A stretch of DNA of 64,000 bases. It comes from Gammaproteobacteria bacterium. Lineage in GTDB: Bacteria > Pseudomonadota > Gammaproteobacteria > Arenicellales > Poriferihabitantaceae. Shown here one piece after another: positions 41,580-49,106 of the stretch. The stretch is taken from assembly GCA_022822625.1 (NCBI GenBank), contig JAJEAV010000005.1, forward strand, positions 73,965 to 137,964, read 5' to 3'. The notes below the pieces were generated by a model that was not told where the DNA came from, searched no databases, and saw only the letters and a list, made by a program, of their open reading frames with translations. The first letter of the stretch is position 1. The number at the start of each line of letters is the position of its first letter. The translations under genes and the position numbers were made by a program.

Positions 41580-42348
41580 TTCCGGCCGGCTATCTGGACT
41601 TCGAGTATTGGTGCCGAGGCCCAGTCCTCAAGGTGATAAGCTGGTCGAGGAGATTCGCCAACTGGGGGCTGAAGCCCTTCATTTTCCTGTGGTTGAGACT
41701 GTCCCGCCAGAGAGTCATGAAGCCCTGGATCAGGTTTTGCGAGATATGGAAAAGTTTGGACTGATCATTATGGTTAGTGTAGCAGCAGCAAGATCGGTAT
41801 TGGCCCGCATGCGCAGTTTGGGCCTGAACTGGCCCCGTTCGACCCTGGTTTGTAGCGTCGGCCCGGTCACCAGTCAGGTATTAAGGGACAATGGTATTCG
41901 GGTTGATATTGAACCTGAGAGTGAATTCACTTCGGAAGGCTTGCTTGCATCACTGCAGCAGGTCGAATTGTCTGGCAGGCATATAGCGATATTTCGAGGC
42001 CAGGAAGGTCGGGAAAAACTAACCGAAGATCTTGAAAAGGCGGGTGCAACGGTATTGCCCGTAATGAGCTATCGCAGACAGATTACCGGTCAACCATTTG
42101 ATGAGGTGATCCAGGCGTGGAGGTCGAGGGGGTTTGACGTGGTAGTCATCACCAGTCACAACATCCTTGATGCATTGCTTGAATTACTCGGTACTCAACA
42201 TAGGTTTCTTATTGAGACAACCCATGTGCTTGTGATTAGCCCAAGAATTGCCAATTACTGCAGACGAAACAAGGTTCACAATGTGAGCGTATGCACTCCG
42301 GGAACTGCTTCGGTTTGTAAGAGTCTCAAGCAGTTTGCCATAAGGTGA
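41569..42348 (+). CDS. hemD: Uroporphyrinogen-III synthase
   Basis: 'LRVLVPRPSPQGDKLVEEIRQLGAEALHFPVVE', 'SVGPVTSQVLRDNGI'; follows hemC with overlap. Confidence 0.88.
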   Translation: MMSDSGRLSGLRVLVPRPSPQGDKLVEEIRQLGAEALHFPVVETVPPESHEALDQVLRDMEKFGLIIMVSVAAARSVLARMRSLGLNWPRSTLVCSVGPVTSQVLRDNGIRVDIEPESEFTSEGLLASLQQVELSGRHIAIFRGQEGREKLTEDLEKAGATVLPVMSYRRQITGQPFDEVIQAWRSRGFDVVVITSHNILDALLELLGTQHRFLIETTHVLVISPRIANYCRRNKVHNVSVCTPGTASVCKSLKQFAIR

Positions 42349-42497
42349 ATCAGTCAACCGACAATCTCACCCGAGTTCCACTCGGAAGTGTAATGATTCT
42401 GAATTGCCTCTCCTCGGAAACACTTATTGTGATCACACCTCAAGCAAATTGGCAACTAGGGCAGTGTTTTCCAATCCTAAAATAATAGGGCAAAACT

Positions 42498-42535
42498 CCG
42501 AGTAGATGTATAACCATAAACTCCCACCTACTCGG
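42498..42535 (-). terminator. Candidate terminator of the minus-strand STAS/HATPase cassette
   Basis: CCGAGTAG (42498-42505) and CTACTCGG (42528-42535) inverted repeat 2 nt past the stop of the last cassette gene; on the minus strand followed by AGTTTT. Confidence 0.5.
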
Positions 42536-42537
42536 CT

Positions 42538-42993
42538 CTATTTTCCAGACTCGCAAATTTCAAAAATTGCCACCAATAGGTTTTGCTTCAATGAATTTCC
42601 GATTGTTCGTGCTTGTTCCTTAGATTGTTCATTAGGGGAGTCAATTATATCCGTGAGAGAAGATTTGAATTTGAAATACAATCCATTCATCTGTATTTTC
42701 CTTTGATGACTTTTTTTCACGTTATCAATCGGCAAGTCAAAAAAATGATATATTTCATTGGAGAGGCTGCGTAGTGAAGCTACTCGCTTGTGTTCATTGT
42801 CTGTTTCAACCGCTGAACAAATATATTGATGTATGTTTCTTTGAATTTCTTGCAAGTAGTTGATGAGCACAGCGTCTCTTTGACTTTTTCTCCTGATTGT
42901 TGTGTTGACCCAGTAACCCACACAAACGATAGCGAATGCTGTAATTGCTGGTGGAGCGAGAGTCTGAAAGAGGGGTATACATATTGTGGTCAT
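42538..42993 (-). CDS. Small protein with N-terminal TM anchor and helical cytosolic domain, unknown function
   Basis: 151 aa; 'ALAPPAITAFAIVCVGYWVNTTIRR'-type TM near the N-terminus; ATGA overlap with upstream gene. Confidence 0.7.
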   Translation of the reverse strand: MTTICIPLFQTLAPPAITAFAIVCVGYWVNTTIRRKSQRDAVLINYLQEIQRNIHQYICSAVETDNEHKRVASLRSLSNEIYHFFDLPIDNVKKSHQRKIQMNGLYFKFKSSLTDIIDSPNEQSKEQARTIGNSLKQNLLVAIFEICESGK

Positions 42994-43349
42994 GTGTTTT
43001 GCTCTGCAGGCTCATAAGGAGGAGTTTTCTCGCTTGCACCGAATTCAATATAGTGTGCAATTTCTTCTACGAGAAGTGGTTCATCGGTACACTGAATATC
43101 TATATGTTCCTTGACCTGTTTAGAATCTCGAAGCCGCACCAACCCGCCAAATGTCTCCTCAAGGAATGATGTTGGATAACCGTAAGGTGCGCCATCCATA
43201 TCGATGATTAATTTTTCGCCGTGCTCAACTGCATCATCGAATGCCGGGAGCAATACATTCCCTCTAAATTCCTCTCCGGAACCCGGGCCTTGATTTTTGT
43301 ATCTAGGGCCTGGAAGGGATTTTAATTTGTCCATCACCTTAAGTTTCAT
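42990..43349 (-). CDS. DUF4325 STAS-like domain protein
   Basis: 119 aa; 'RGNVLLPAFDDAVEHGEKLIIDMDGAPYGYPTSFLEETFGGLVR' matches my recollection of the STAS-like DUF4325 family. Confidence 0.78.
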   Translation of the reverse strand: MKLKVMDKLKSLPGPRYKNQGPGSGEEFRGNVLLPAFDDAVEHGEKLIIDMDGAPYGYPTSFLEETFGGLVRLRDSKQVKEHIDIQCTDEPLLVEEIAHYIEFGASEKTPPYEPAEQNT

Positions 43350-43352
43350 AGA

Positions 43353-44423
43353 TTACTCCTCGTTTGTAGATGCTGACCAAGAAATTATGGTGCCATTAAA
43401 ACTTTCCTTTACCTTGCGATACTGCATTTTTGCAATATCTCCTTCTACCTTTCCAGTTCGAATTTTAAGATTTTGCAAATATCCGAACTGGGCATCACGC
43501 CTCATTCTTGGCAAGCCTAACCCCCGCCCTGGTCGGCCAGTTGATGAACCAATTTTTCCATCGAAAGCATCTCTCACCAGTTTGTCGGGGCCATACCCGG
43601 ATATAGTATTTTTGATCATTGTCATATAGTTGGTTGCTTGTACACTTTTGCAAATACCAACTCCCATGTCAATAAATGTAAACTGGGCCTCGCCTTCACG
43701 ACACATTACACCTGCAACCCACTGTTCGGTATCACCATCTCCAGAAGGATTCCCATCTTTCCCCTTAGCATGATTATGAGTATTGGTCATACATTCCACC
43801 AGATTTTGCCAGATTGCATTTTTCTGTTCTTGAGGCATATGGATATTATTTTCGTTAGCAAACTTGATAAGCTTGTCCGCTTTCTGTGATCCTACTTTCT
43901 TTTCCCGCTGACTTATCCAAGATGCTTTAGCTTGTGGCAATTGCTGTCCCTCAATCGTGAAATTTCTGAAAAATCCCGATTCAATAAATTCGCTTGCCAC
44001 TGACTCATTCATAGGAAGATTTCCTTCAATACTAGAAGGAGGAATTTTCTTTGAATGAGTCGGTTTTGTTTTTATGGCTACTGCCAGAGCGATAACTCCT
44101 GAGAGAGTGAATTCCCTCATAGAGGACATATCTACAAAGATTTCTTTACCGCCATTTTCACGATATTTCCTGATTAACTCACATACTTTAATTGTTTCAT
44201 CGCTTTGTTCAATTGCGTCTAGCCGTTGAGGAGTGTGTATTGTTACTCTTTCTCTTTGTGACCTGCTGTCACTACTCCCTCGATTTGATCGTCTTTTGGA
44301 TTGCTCGAAAGATCTATTTCGTTTTCGTTTATTTCTCCTACTTAACCATTTTCTTCGTGCCCTCTTCCGCTCACAACGTCTTTTGTGCTTTAACTTCCCG
44401 GAAATTGAATTACACTTTTTCAA
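43353..44423 (-). CDS. STAS-like / GHKL-type HATPase fusion protein with Arg/Lys-rich N-terminus
   Basis: 356 aa; basic N-term 'KHKRRCERKRARRKWLSRRNKRKRNR'; STAS-like 'KEIFVDMSSMREFTLSGVIALAVAI'; HATPase boxes 'NLVECMTNTHNHA', 'FIDMGVGI', 'GRPGRGLGLPRM'. Confidence 0.78.
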   Translation of the reverse strand: MKKCNSISGKLKHKRRCERKRARRKWLSRRNKRKRNRSFEQSKRRSNRGSSDSRSQRERVTIHTPQRLDAIEQSDETIKVCELIRKYRENGGKEIFVDMSSMREFTLSGVIALAVAIKTKPTHSKKIPPSSIEGNLPMNESVASEFIESGFFRNFTIEGQQLPQAKASWISQREKKVGSQKADKLIKFANENNIHMPQEQKNAIWQNLVECMTNTHNHAKGKDGNPSGDGDTEQWVAGVMCREGEAQFTFIDMGVGICKSVQATNYMTMIKNTISGYGPDKLVRDAFDGKIGSSTGRPGRGLGLPRMRRDAQFGYLQNLKIRTGKVEGDIAKMQYRKVKESFNGTIISWSASTNEE

Positions 44424-44780
44424 ATTATCTCCATGTTGCTATGAAGTGCACAGTATTTAGCGTTCATAGCCTAAGATCAACGAGAAATGTTTATGAGCTA
44501 ATTATCTTTTGATGGTCGCTATCAGGGAGTATATCCAGTGGATATGCAGCAATTACATGGAATCGGTCATAAATGTTTACTCAGTCCAACGGCGGGTCAT
44601 TATTACCCATGAATAAAATTTTTCCACTTAGTGCAGGAATGATAGCACAGAATCTTGACACTATTATTGCGGAGGCTTGACCACTGAACCTGCAAATTGT
44701 CTGGTAGAATCGAAAAATCGGCAAGGTATCGTGAAAAGGATATGTAGTCCGGTAGTACATCCAACCATACAGACTCCGAT

Positions 44781-46286
44781 ATGACTGTGAGCCGCAACAC
44801 GGGTGGCAAAAAACCCTCAACCCAGAAAAGAAAACCACCAGCTCGGAAGAGATCGACCGGTACGACAATTCGGTCTGCAACCAAGGAATCTGCTGACTCG
44901 AGCACCACATCTACACCAAGTGATGACGAGGCCAAAGCATCGGCAATGAAACCCGGTGCTTCAACTGCCAAGGCAGCCAGAGCCAGCAAAGCAAAGACAG
45001 ATACATCCAAAACGAGGATGTCACATGAGGTTGCTGATGCTGACAAATCTTCTGCACCCTCTACACCTGTGTCGCTTCAGGAATCTCGACAATTCTCTGC
45101 ACCGGACTCAACTGATAGAACAAGTACCGGTACTACTCATGTCAATAATAGTCAGTCATCGCCCCCCATCCTGTCTTCGATTGCACTAGTGGTAGGGATA
45201 CTTTCAATGCTTGCGGCGGGCTATGCGGTTTATACCACGCAGTTTGATTCAAGGCTTGAACGGATGAGGCAGAATGATCAGATTGAATTCCTTGAACAAC
45301 GAGTAGAAACCATTCTGGATACTCAGTCAACACTTGAAACAAGTGTTACCAATCTCCGGTTGAGTTCAGCAGAACTGGAAGCTGCAAATCAGGAAAGGCT
45401 AGGGGCATTGAGGATGCAAATCGCTTCTCAGGAAGACTCGATACGACAACTGAGTGCAGAGTCCTTGGAGGAGATGACGGGTCAAATCGAGGTGTTCAAG
45501 GAAGAACTGGAATCACTTTCCCAGGAAGTAGCTCGGACTAAATCCTATTTTCAGGGGGGAGTGGAAAGTTGGACCCTGAAGGAGATTGAACACCTTTTGC
45601 TGGTTGCTGATCATCGACTTCGTTTTACTGGAGAAAATCATCTTGCACTGGCTGCACTTGAAATAGCATCTGCCCGTTTGGATGCGTTGGGTAATTCGAA
45701 CTACTCCGAAGTCAGAAGGCTTCTGGCCCAAGATATTCAGAACCTGAAAAGCAGTGCTCCGGTCGAACCATTGTTCTTGCTGGAACAGTTGCGGGTCTTG
45801 AATGACCGTGTTCCCCACCTTCCCGTACTCGGCGACCCGATAGCGTCCGAGTCCAATATCGATTCCGAAGAAGGAAGTCCGAAAACAACAGGTACGGGTA
45901 CGGACCAGCAATCAGGAGGGGTTTTTCAGTCACTGATTGATGCTGGAGCACGATTCCTGGATAGTTTTACTGATCTCATACAGGTCGAAAAGAACAACCG
46001 GCCGGTTCGTCCGCTACTATCAGGAGATCTCCGGAAGTTGATATACGAGCGAACCCATCTATTCATAGAGTCTGCGGAGTCTGCACTGGTTCGTCAACAG
46101 TCCGTGCTCGTTGCAGAGCGCCTGAATATTCTGAGGAAATGGGTTTTTGACAACTTTGACACGAACTCAGATATCACAATTGAATGGATTGGCATGCTTG
46201 ATGATATTCTTGATAATCTGCCGACAGATCCTTCGGGTGATTTATCAAGGTCAATATCTGCCCTGCAAGCCGTAATGGAACGTTGA
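44781..46286 (+). CDS. hemX: HemX-like membrane protein
   Basis: Low-complexity N-term, TM 'PILSSIALVVGILSMLAAGYAVYTTQ', coiled coil, 'VESWTLKEIEHLLLVADHRLRFTGENHLALAALEIASARL'. Confidence 0.9.
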   Translation: MTVSRNTGGKKPSTQKRKPPARKRSTGTTIRSATKESADSSTTSTPSDDEAKASAMKPGASTAKAARASKAKTDTSKTRMSHEVADADKSSAPSTPVSLQESRQFSAPDSTDRTSTGTTHVNNSQSSPPILSSIALVVGILSMLAAGYAVYTTQFDSRLERMRQNDQIEFLEQRVETILDTQSTLETSVTNLRLSSAELEAANQERLGALRMQIASQEDSIRQLSAESLEEMTGQIEVFKEELESLSQEVARTKSYFQGGVESWTLKEIEHLLLVADHRLRFTGENHLALAALEIASARLDALGNSNYSEVRRLLAQDIQNLKSSAPVEPLFLLEQLRVLNDRVPHLPVLGDPIASESNIDSEEGSPKTTGTGTDQQSGGVFQSLIDAGARFLDSFTDLIQVEKNNRPVRPLLSGDLRKLIYERTHLFIESAESALVRQQSVLVAERLNILRKWVFDNFDTNSDITIEWIGMLDDILDNLPTDPSGDLSRSISALQAVMER

Positions 46287-47720: not shown

Positions 47721-47792
47721 ATTAAAATTCCACTAATTGGCGAAAAACAAAGAAACATACTTTCTTATTTGAACATCTTGGCAGGGTCAAGC

Positions 47793-49106
47793 ATGAGGCG
47801 TACTTTATTACAGTCATTGATTGCCTGGAAAAACACGAACAAGCGCAAGCCCATACTCATCGACGGTGCACGCCAAACAGGAAAGACATACCTTCTGCAA
47901 AACCTGTTTGGCAAAGAGTTTGCCAATACCTTACGTGTTGATTTTCTGGAAAATCCAGAGTTCAAGAAAGCCTTTGATGGTTCCCTGACACCACATGATA
48001 TCTTGATGAATATTGAGATCATGACTGGCCAGCGATTTCATCCAAAGACGGATTTGTTGATTCTTGATGAGATAGGTGAATGCGAGCGTGCCGCTACATC
48101 GTTAAAATATTTTGCCGAGAAAGCGCCTACCTATTTTGTGGCCGCCAGCGGTTCCAATGTAGGATTGCTGGGCACCTTCCCTGTTGGAAAAGTCGAACAA
48201 TATGACTTGCGTCCAATGACGTATCGAGAATTTCTTTACGCATCGGAAGAATCGGCACTGATCGAGGCGTTTGAAGCGCAGGTTCATTCAGCTGTAGCTC
48301 ATACCCGGCTTCTCGATAATCTCACTGACTACTACTTTACCGGTGGAATGCCGGAAGCCGTTGCCGCCTGGTATCGATACAAAAGCATCAGTATTCTGGA
48401 AGGTATGGAAAAAGTTCGTGAAATCCATTCGAATCTGCTGCAGGGATATCGCAGGGATTTTGGCAAGTATTCTGACAAGGTTGATGCCCTTCTGATTGAG
48501 TCCGTTTTTACCGGCATCCCGGCACAGCTTTCTGCGGTGATGGACCAATCTGTAAAACGCTTCAAGTTCAAGAATACCTATAAACACAAATCACGCTACA
48601 GTGATTTCGAAAACGCGATACGCTGGTTAATCTGCTGCCGTCTTGCCCTTGCCAATTTTCCAGTCGAAGGGATGCCAAGAACACCTCTTGCAGCTTACAA
48701 AAAAAAGAACATGGTCAAACTCTTCCTGTTCGATGTGGGGTTGCTGAATCATATGCTTGGCACCGGATACAGGGAAATCAAGCAGAAGAGCTATGAGTAC
48801 AAAGGTTATATTGCTGAAAACTTTGTCCAGCAGGAACTTGCCGCTATTGGTTTTGACCCTGGCTATTCATGGAATGATGCCCGCGCAGAAGTCGAATTTA
48901 TTATTGCCAATGATAAAGGGGAGATTGCGCCAATAGAAGTCAAGAGCGGAAAACGTACCCGAGCCAAGTCCCTACAATCCTACATCAGCAAATGTGGCCC
49001 CAAAAAGACGTTCAAACTGACTGGCACACAGGGGTCTCCAGCATCAGAGCAAACGAATATCGTGATGCCGTTATATTATGCGATGTATATTCCGCAGAGG
49101 TGGTGA
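47793..49106 (+). CDS. AAA_14/DUF4143-type ATPase
   Basis: Walker A 'PILIDGARQTGKTYLLQNLFGKEF', 'LILDEIGECERAATSLKYFAE', C-term 'KGYIAENFVQQELAAIG...EVEFIIANDKGEIAPIEVKSGKRTRAKSL'. ATG 47793 preferred over TTG 47769. Confidence 0.9.
   Translation: MRRTLLQSLIAWKNTNKRKPILIDGARQTGKTYLLQNLFGKEFANTLRVDFLENPEFKKAFDGSLTPHDILMNIEIMTGQRFHPKTDLLILDEIGECERAATSLKYFAEKAPTYFVAASGSNVGLLGTFPVGKVEQYDLRPMTYREFLYASEESALIEAFEAQVHSAVAHTRLLDNLTDYYFTGGMPEAVAAWYRYKSISILEGMEKVREIHSNLLQGYRRDFGKYSDKVDALLIESVFTGIPAQLSAVMDQSVKRFKFKNTYKHKSRYSDFENAIRWLICCRLALANFPVEGMPRTPLAAYKKKNMVKLFLFDVGLLNHMLGTGYREIKQKSYEYKGYIAENFVQQELAAIGFDPGYSWNDARAEVEFIIANDKGEIAPIEVKSGKRTRAKSLQSYISKCGPKKTFKLTGTQGSPASEQTNIVMPLYYAMYIPQRW

Follow-up and report, generated by a model that had tools for sequence, protein, structure and literature searches.

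A mobile STAS-GHKL kinase, DUF4325 and membrane protein cassette inserted at hemD, a candidate anti-phage switch

Between hemC-hemD and hemX-hemY of a gammaproteobacterial genome (GCA_022822625.1) lie three genes that run against the hem block, and the question is how they came there and what they do. The window analysed is a stretch of 64,000 nucleotides of contig JAJEAV010000005.1. Pfam identifies hemC (Porphobil_deam), hemD (HEM4; stop at 42348), hemX (start at 44781) and hemY, and the block boundaries drawn in an earlier note on this DNA, with hemD ending at 42348 and hemX resuming at 44781, are thereby borne out. The hemD-hemX interval holds three intact open reading frames on the minus strand, at 43353-44423, 42990-43349 and 42538-42993; genes 1 and 2 are separated by a gap of 3 nucleotides and genes 2 and 3 overlap by 4 nucleotides, the arrangement that the note had described. 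Its gene labels also hold, the products being a STAS-GHKL ATPase (phrog_3364), a DUF4325 protein (Pfam) and a protein with one transmembrane (TM) helix. The AT-richness it had reported from hand counts of G+C (20/60 and 39/60, both exact) is seen in the averages as well, with 40.6% G+C in the insert (42340-44672) against 49.1% in the window, where all 247 sliding windows of the same size are richer in G+C. No convincing sigma-70 promoter was found in the leader upstream of the kinase gene, inside the insert (44424-44672, minus strand). Directly 3' of the gene 3 stop codon is a hairpin with 11-bp arms and a 16-nucleotide loop (42498-42535, minus strand), a probable terminator. An AAA_14/DUF4143 ATPase gene is present immediately 3' of hemY (47769-49106, plus strand).

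The cassette is an insertion at the 3' end of hemD, because the gap between hemD and hemX in four congeners is plain and only about 100 nucleotides long. The earlier note had proposed an insertion into the hem block and named the comparison with close relatives as a check; these relatives lack the cassette here. The closest empty sites are those of G006 (HemD 85% identical) and G002 (HemD 81% identical), and homology to both breaks at about 42339 and restarts at about 44672, which delimits an inserted segment of about 2.33 kb (42340-44672). At the empty site of G002 (L040), the hemD stop codon lies inside a perfect 8-bp hairpin, CGGGCTTG-ATCGC-CAAGCCCG (CGGGCTTGATCGCCAAGCCCG), and G006 has a similar but shorter hairpin at the hemD 3' end. 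The segment is thus inserted in or at the hairpin, and the last hemD codons are replaced by it. No clear target-site duplication is present at the insert ends, the junctions having no common k-mer longer than 5 nucleotides, and a search for terminal repeats of the insert found none. A 15-nucleotide inverted pair (87%) near both ends, 42387-42401 and 44648-44662, is one of 52 such pairs and may be due to chance. The cassette ends show no DNA similarity to other copies outside the coding part.

A homologue of any kind is found in 3 of 99 other relatives, in each case broken or truncated and at another site, and no intact copy was seen among these relatives besides that of the window. In G003, of the same genus (L037), a piece of the kinase gene with frame breaks lies at a contig end with panB nearby, and an N6/N4 DNA methyltransferase gene and an IS1595-like transposase are situated between the cassette pieces. 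The kinase gene of G055 contains an IS66-type insertion and adjoins a ferrochelatase gene, and the kinase of G046 is truncated. A genome of the same order (G045, L085) carries a STAS-GHKL kinase beside a phage-type integrase, with a gene for a small TM protein on the opposite strand; no DUF4325 gene was seen at that locus.

Whether the three genes form a unit was judged from loci that the DUF4325 alignment A4 retrieved by itself (80 of 182 genome loci and 80 of 167 viral-contig loci). The kinase gene adjoins the DUF4325 gene in 156 of the 160 loci, and a third open reading frame of 100-260 residues is likewise present in 156. A TM-like segment occurs in 137 of these 156 third frames (88%), compared with 23% of 805 background frames of like size, and the intergenic gaps are typically negative, i.e. 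overlaps. The co-occurrence of the three genes is thus confirmed. By their record titles, the loci come from, among others, Gamma-, Beta- and Alphaproteobacteria, Bacteroidota, Clostridia and other Bacillota, Desulfobacterota, Verrucomicrobiota, Acidobacteriota, Omnitrophota and Patescibacteria. When P0001, the kinase of the window, was used alone as a pattern against genome and viral contigs, or as a tblastn query against phages and plasmids, nothing matched; its homologues were reached only via phrog_3364 and DUF4325. The trio is real, mobile and conserved, and apparently undescribed in the literature searched, where two papers refer to DUF4325 and one to vapKSC by name, bioRxiv and most subscription journals being outside that scope.

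Mobility, which the earlier note had suspected, is evident from the patchy distribution of the trio and from its presence on plasmids, in phages and in prophages. It lies beside Cro/CI-type regulators in Marinobacter phage AS1 and directly after an XRE repressor on a Pasteurella phage-like plasmid; a Helicobacter prophage and plasmids of Vibrio, Acinetobacter and Leptospira carry it too. Of 34 non-redundant viral loci, 19 have a gene for a CI-like repressor as their direct upstream neighbour in the same orientation, compared with 3 among 221 other open reading frames taken as a control; the repressor seeds came partly from neighbours of the module, and the figure describes the sample and is not a significance test. 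Four upstream proteins that were tested are CI/S24-type repressors by Pfam. At the genome loci, no CI-like repressor was found nearby in 56 of 63 non-redundant cases. The Pfam families met most often in 103 genes directly flanking genome copies are S24/HTH repressors and integrases, and single neighbours match models for restriction-modification, PD-Lambda-5, IetA, MzaA and HEC-01, both counts being made without a control set. None of the three window proteins matches a model of PADLOC-DB 2.0.0, and other module members give weak matches only, save for DrmA on a fused protein from locus L095 (HATPase region, 9e-8).

The nearest characterised systems to the cassette are CapKS and VapKSC. CapK is an ssDNA-activated STAS-GHKL kinase that phosphorylates CapS, and the pair forms a transcriptional switch that responds to DNA damage (Chambers et al., EMBO J, June 2026, PMC13373217). 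VapC, the PIN toxin of VapKSC, is inhibited by the STAS protein VapS and freed when VapS is phosphorylated; the S48E mutation of VapS abolishes the inhibition, and S48A abolishes phage protection (PMC13373217). Protection against phage Bas42 is about 2-log and needs VapC D28, VapS S48 and VapK F54, the last of which, like CapK W68, is an aromatic residue stacking on ssDNA (PMC13373217). Neither DUF4325 nor a transmembrane third gene is mentioned in that paper. The cassette shares with vapKSC the gene order (STAS-GHKL kinase, DUF4325-type STAS protein and a small third gene, which in vapKSC is the effector), homologous kinase and STAS genes, a serine or threonine at the phospho-position, and plasmid and defence contexts. 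The module kinase profile finds the PIN-linked kinases of L275 (2.2e-15) and L081 (6.7e-13), and the order kinase, DUF4325, PIN is found both in the L081 operon and in an operon on a Deinococcus plasmid, the kinases of both being homologous to P0001. The Deinococcus operon was retrieved by searching with a PIN-linked kinase, and this search yielded no PIN-type operon in 185 genomes of the class to which the window belongs. The cassette resembles capK-capS in having a STAS-GHKL kinase beside a STAS substrate and in its tie to phage immunity. It differs in that the kinase lacks an HTH, its N terminus being one long basic helix, P0002 lacks a winged HTH, and no large immune operon lies downstream.

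Gene 1 (43353-44423, minus strand) has a TTG start codon and encodes the 356-residue P0001, which has no match in Pfam but matches phrog_3364 with an E value of 3.5e-26. A profile of 89 module kinases retrieves it at 1.3e-55. The best PDB match of profile A2, built from 16 relatives, is SpoIIAB (E 0.017), via the GHKL part, and the N-terminal part of the profile matches the anti-sigma antagonist TM1442. The AlphaFold model (pLDDT 86.6, pTM 0.79) consists of a helix (residues 2-48), a STAS domain and a GHKL domain; the STAS domain covers about residues 59-155 (43959-44249, minus strand), as placed by the TM1442 match and by Foldseek. SpoIIAB is the best Foldseek match of the model (8e-5), and RsbW and STAS folds are also found, in keeping with the likeness to SpoIIAB-type kinases noted earlier. 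Invariant in all of 90 kinases are the N-box E210-x3-N214-x3-H218 (43770-43796), Asp-252 and Gly-254 of the G1 box D252-x-G-x-G256 (43656-43670; Gly-256 in 88 of 90), and the G2 box G301-x-G303 (43515-43523), all on the minus strand. P0001 has Glu-210, Asn-214, His-218, Asp-252, Gly-254, Gly-301 and Gly-303, and judged by these residues its ATP site is intact. Thus the kinase fold, the intact N, G1 and G2 boxes and a STAS partner with serine or threonine at the phosphoacceptor position are shared with SpoIIAB/SpoIIAA and RsbW/RsbV; the cassette differs from these in that its kinase has its own STAS domain and that it is mobile, with a membrane protein as third gene. The kinases most similar to P0001 belong to Bacteroidota, Methylophaga and a Ruminococcus, consistent with horizontal transfer.

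The N terminus sets P0001 apart from VapK. Residues 1-50 (44274-44423, minus strand) include 24 Lys or Arg and 2 Asp or Glu and cover the predicted helix 2-48, with pLDDT above 90 at residues 11-30; over the first 50 residues, the module kinases have a median net charge of +14. A further difference is that the ssDNA-stacking aromatic appears not to be conserved. The STAS-domain column that aligns with a tryptophan of both PIN-linked kinases, and that probably corresponds to CapK W68 and VapK F54, is occupied by Glu-104 in P0001 and, on the same mapping, by an aromatic residue in 7 of 90 module kinases. As this aromatic is absent at the presumed position and the basic N-terminal helix is shared, the activating ligand may bind differently, and the trigger of the module kinases may differ from that of CapK and VapK. 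Some kinases are fused to a C-terminal DUF4325-like domain, like phrog_5816 (L095:5479-6792, minus strand, by Pfam; L089:5895-7064, plus strand, by eye); these are possibly kinase and substrate in one chain.

Gene 2 (42990-43349, minus strand) encodes P0002, a protein of 119 residues that matches DUF4325 (PF14213, 4.3e-8) and contains this domain only, with no DNA-binding domain. P0002 would be the inhibitor and the kinase substrate. PF14213 also matches the VapS proteins of PIN-type operons, and the best PDB match of the P0002 family profile, a weak one (E 0.25), is Escherichia VapS (9z7o). In the HMMER alignment with 9z7o, the serine at chain position 66 aligns with the residue preceding the invariant DUF4325 serine, which in P0002 is Thr-60, and the predicted phosphoacceptor site is therefore Thr-60-Ser-61 (43167-43172, minus strand). 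The numbering suggests that position 66 is VapS S48, as the chain has 134 residues and VapS 116, an offset of 18. Serine or threonine occupies the phospho-position in 16 of 20 unselected family members; the 158 of 159 fetched loci with either residue are not independent, as the search pattern itself held [ST]. Unlike VapS, the P0002-type STAS proteins have an N-terminal motif of their own, FS..P.GRY..DGP.SGE.FR. Two Vibrio loci (L112, L113) have an orphan form, a DUF4325 gene followed by a gene for 126 residues, with no kinase, near an ImmA/IrrE peptidase gene.

Gene 3 (42538-42993, minus strand) marks the main difference from VapKSC, since it encodes a membrane protein and not a PIN nuclease. 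P0003 has 151 residues and is all helical in the AlphaFold model (pLDDT 81), with one TM helix followed by a cytosolic helical bundle. No match was found in family libraries with curated cut-offs, no PIN domain was detected, and the fold has no match in the PDB, Foldseek giving generic helical bundles only (best E 0.35). The TM helix, about residues 13-31 (42901-42957, minus strand), contains the family motif G26-[WY]27 and is followed by RRKSQR; by the positive-inside rule, the predicted topology is N-out/C-in, which leaves hardly any of the protein beyond the membrane. Among 56 aligned third-gene products (A7), Gly-26-Trp/Tyr-27 at the end of the TM helix, Arg/Lys-110 and Thr-114 (54 of 56) are conserved, and P0003 keeps the conserved positions. 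The counterpart in G055 is 46% identical, and the link to the wider third-gene family is weak (best single match E 5e-4; profile E 0.065). By analogy P0003 would be the effector, but it might instead be an anchor or a sensor. Many third genes of Bacteroidota and Bacillota (e.g. L125, L142) encode a second form of the membrane protein with two predicted TM segments.

The simplest model is a VapKSC switch in which a membrane protein replaces VapC, because the kinase, the STAS protein and the gene order match. The path proposed in the earlier note, from ATPase through STAS protein to membrane effector, thus has the architecture of the experimentally studied VapKSC (PMC13373217); its direction and its role in defence we infer, as we do kinase activity, trigger and toxicity. 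In the resting state, the DUF4325 protein would bind the one-TM protein at its cytosolic helical bundle and hold it inactive. The kinase would sense a molecule, probably a nucleic acid, that arises from infection or DNA damage, via the basic N-terminal helix, the STAS-GHKL groove or both. Once activated, it would phosphorylate the DUF4325 protein at Thr-60 (or Ser-61) and so free the one-TM protein to act at the inner membrane, where it would either damage the membrane, arresting growth of the infected cell, or block incoming phage.

We consider it fairly probable, if far from certain, that the cassette is a mobile anti-phage module of the abortive-infection type, a membrane-effector variant of the kinase-STAS immune switch. 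This is favoured by a kinase with the SpoIIAB/RsbW fold that is homologous to the VapK of PIN operons (2e-15), by DUF4325 being the Pfam family of VapS too, with Thr-60 aligning with S48 (a weak profile match), by the linkage of the trio (156/160), its TM third gene (137/156) and the upstream CI-like repressor (19/34), and by single neighbours matching defence models (no control set). Against it stand the lack of the aromatic at the presumed position (Glu-104 in P0001), so that the trigger may differ, the weak sequence link of P0003 to the wider third-gene family, and the possible role of the TM protein as an anchor or sensor.

The position beside phage repressors could also mean that the cassette serves lysogeny control rather than defence, and the sister system CapKS is indeed a DNA-damage-responsive transcriptional switch (PMC13373217). 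That reading is unlikely, since the 119-residue STAS protein consists of DUF4325 only and lacks a DNA-binding domain, the repressor was not found near most genome copies (56/63), and the conserved membrane protein is left unexplained. A place just downstream of the repressor, as in the 19 of 34 viral loci, is also that of the genes in lambda cI-rexA-rexB, a sensor plus membrane protein next to the repressor. The cassette is likened to it by position and gene type alone and differs in having three genes, with a kinase and a STAS protein in place of RexA.

Signalling might run in reverse, with the TM protein sensing membrane stress or phage entry and controlling a kinase-STAS pair that acts on another cellular target, such as a sigma factor. 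Classical SpoIIAB/RsbW switches, whose fold the cassette kinase shares, do govern sigma factors, but the conserved set in the fetched loci contains no sigma factor or transcription factor gene, although a distant target is possible. The third gene of VapKSC is an effector (PMC13373217), and an N-out P0003 with almost nothing beyond the membrane fits an effector better than a sensor of the outside, which makes reverse signalling quite improbable. Very unlikely, too, is superinfection exclusion with no damage to the host, in which the released TM protein would keep out the DNA of other phages, in the manner of prophage Sie proteins: the prophage position beside cI and the small single-TM protein would suit it, but a kinase alarm ahead of a simple entry block is unusual, and many copies lie outside prophages, including in phyla with different envelopes. 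That the cassette is passenger DNA which is decaying and now serves no function in its host is scarcely credible, for although other members of its genus and order carry broken copies (G003 and G046 truncated, G055 disrupted by IS66), its own three frames are intact and its kinase keeps every invariant residue.

A wider form of the anti-phage reading, which we hold more tentatively and put a little short of probable, is that the trio represents a widespread unnamed immune system, largely prophage-borne beside cI, in which a kinase-STAS switch gates a membrane effector of a new family and the signal is read by the basic N-terminal helix and not by an aromatic ssDNA pocket. The model specifies the phosphosite, the kinase mutants and the effector topology closely enough for direct testing. 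If the anti-phage reading is true, the STAS-GHKL switch reported in 2026 would have a third and very widespread output, a membrane protein, besides the repressor CapS and the PIN toxin VapC. Part of DUF4325, phrog_3364 and an unnamed family of small TM proteins would then gain a function, and a gene set in the lysogeny region of many temperate phages would be a likely defence module.
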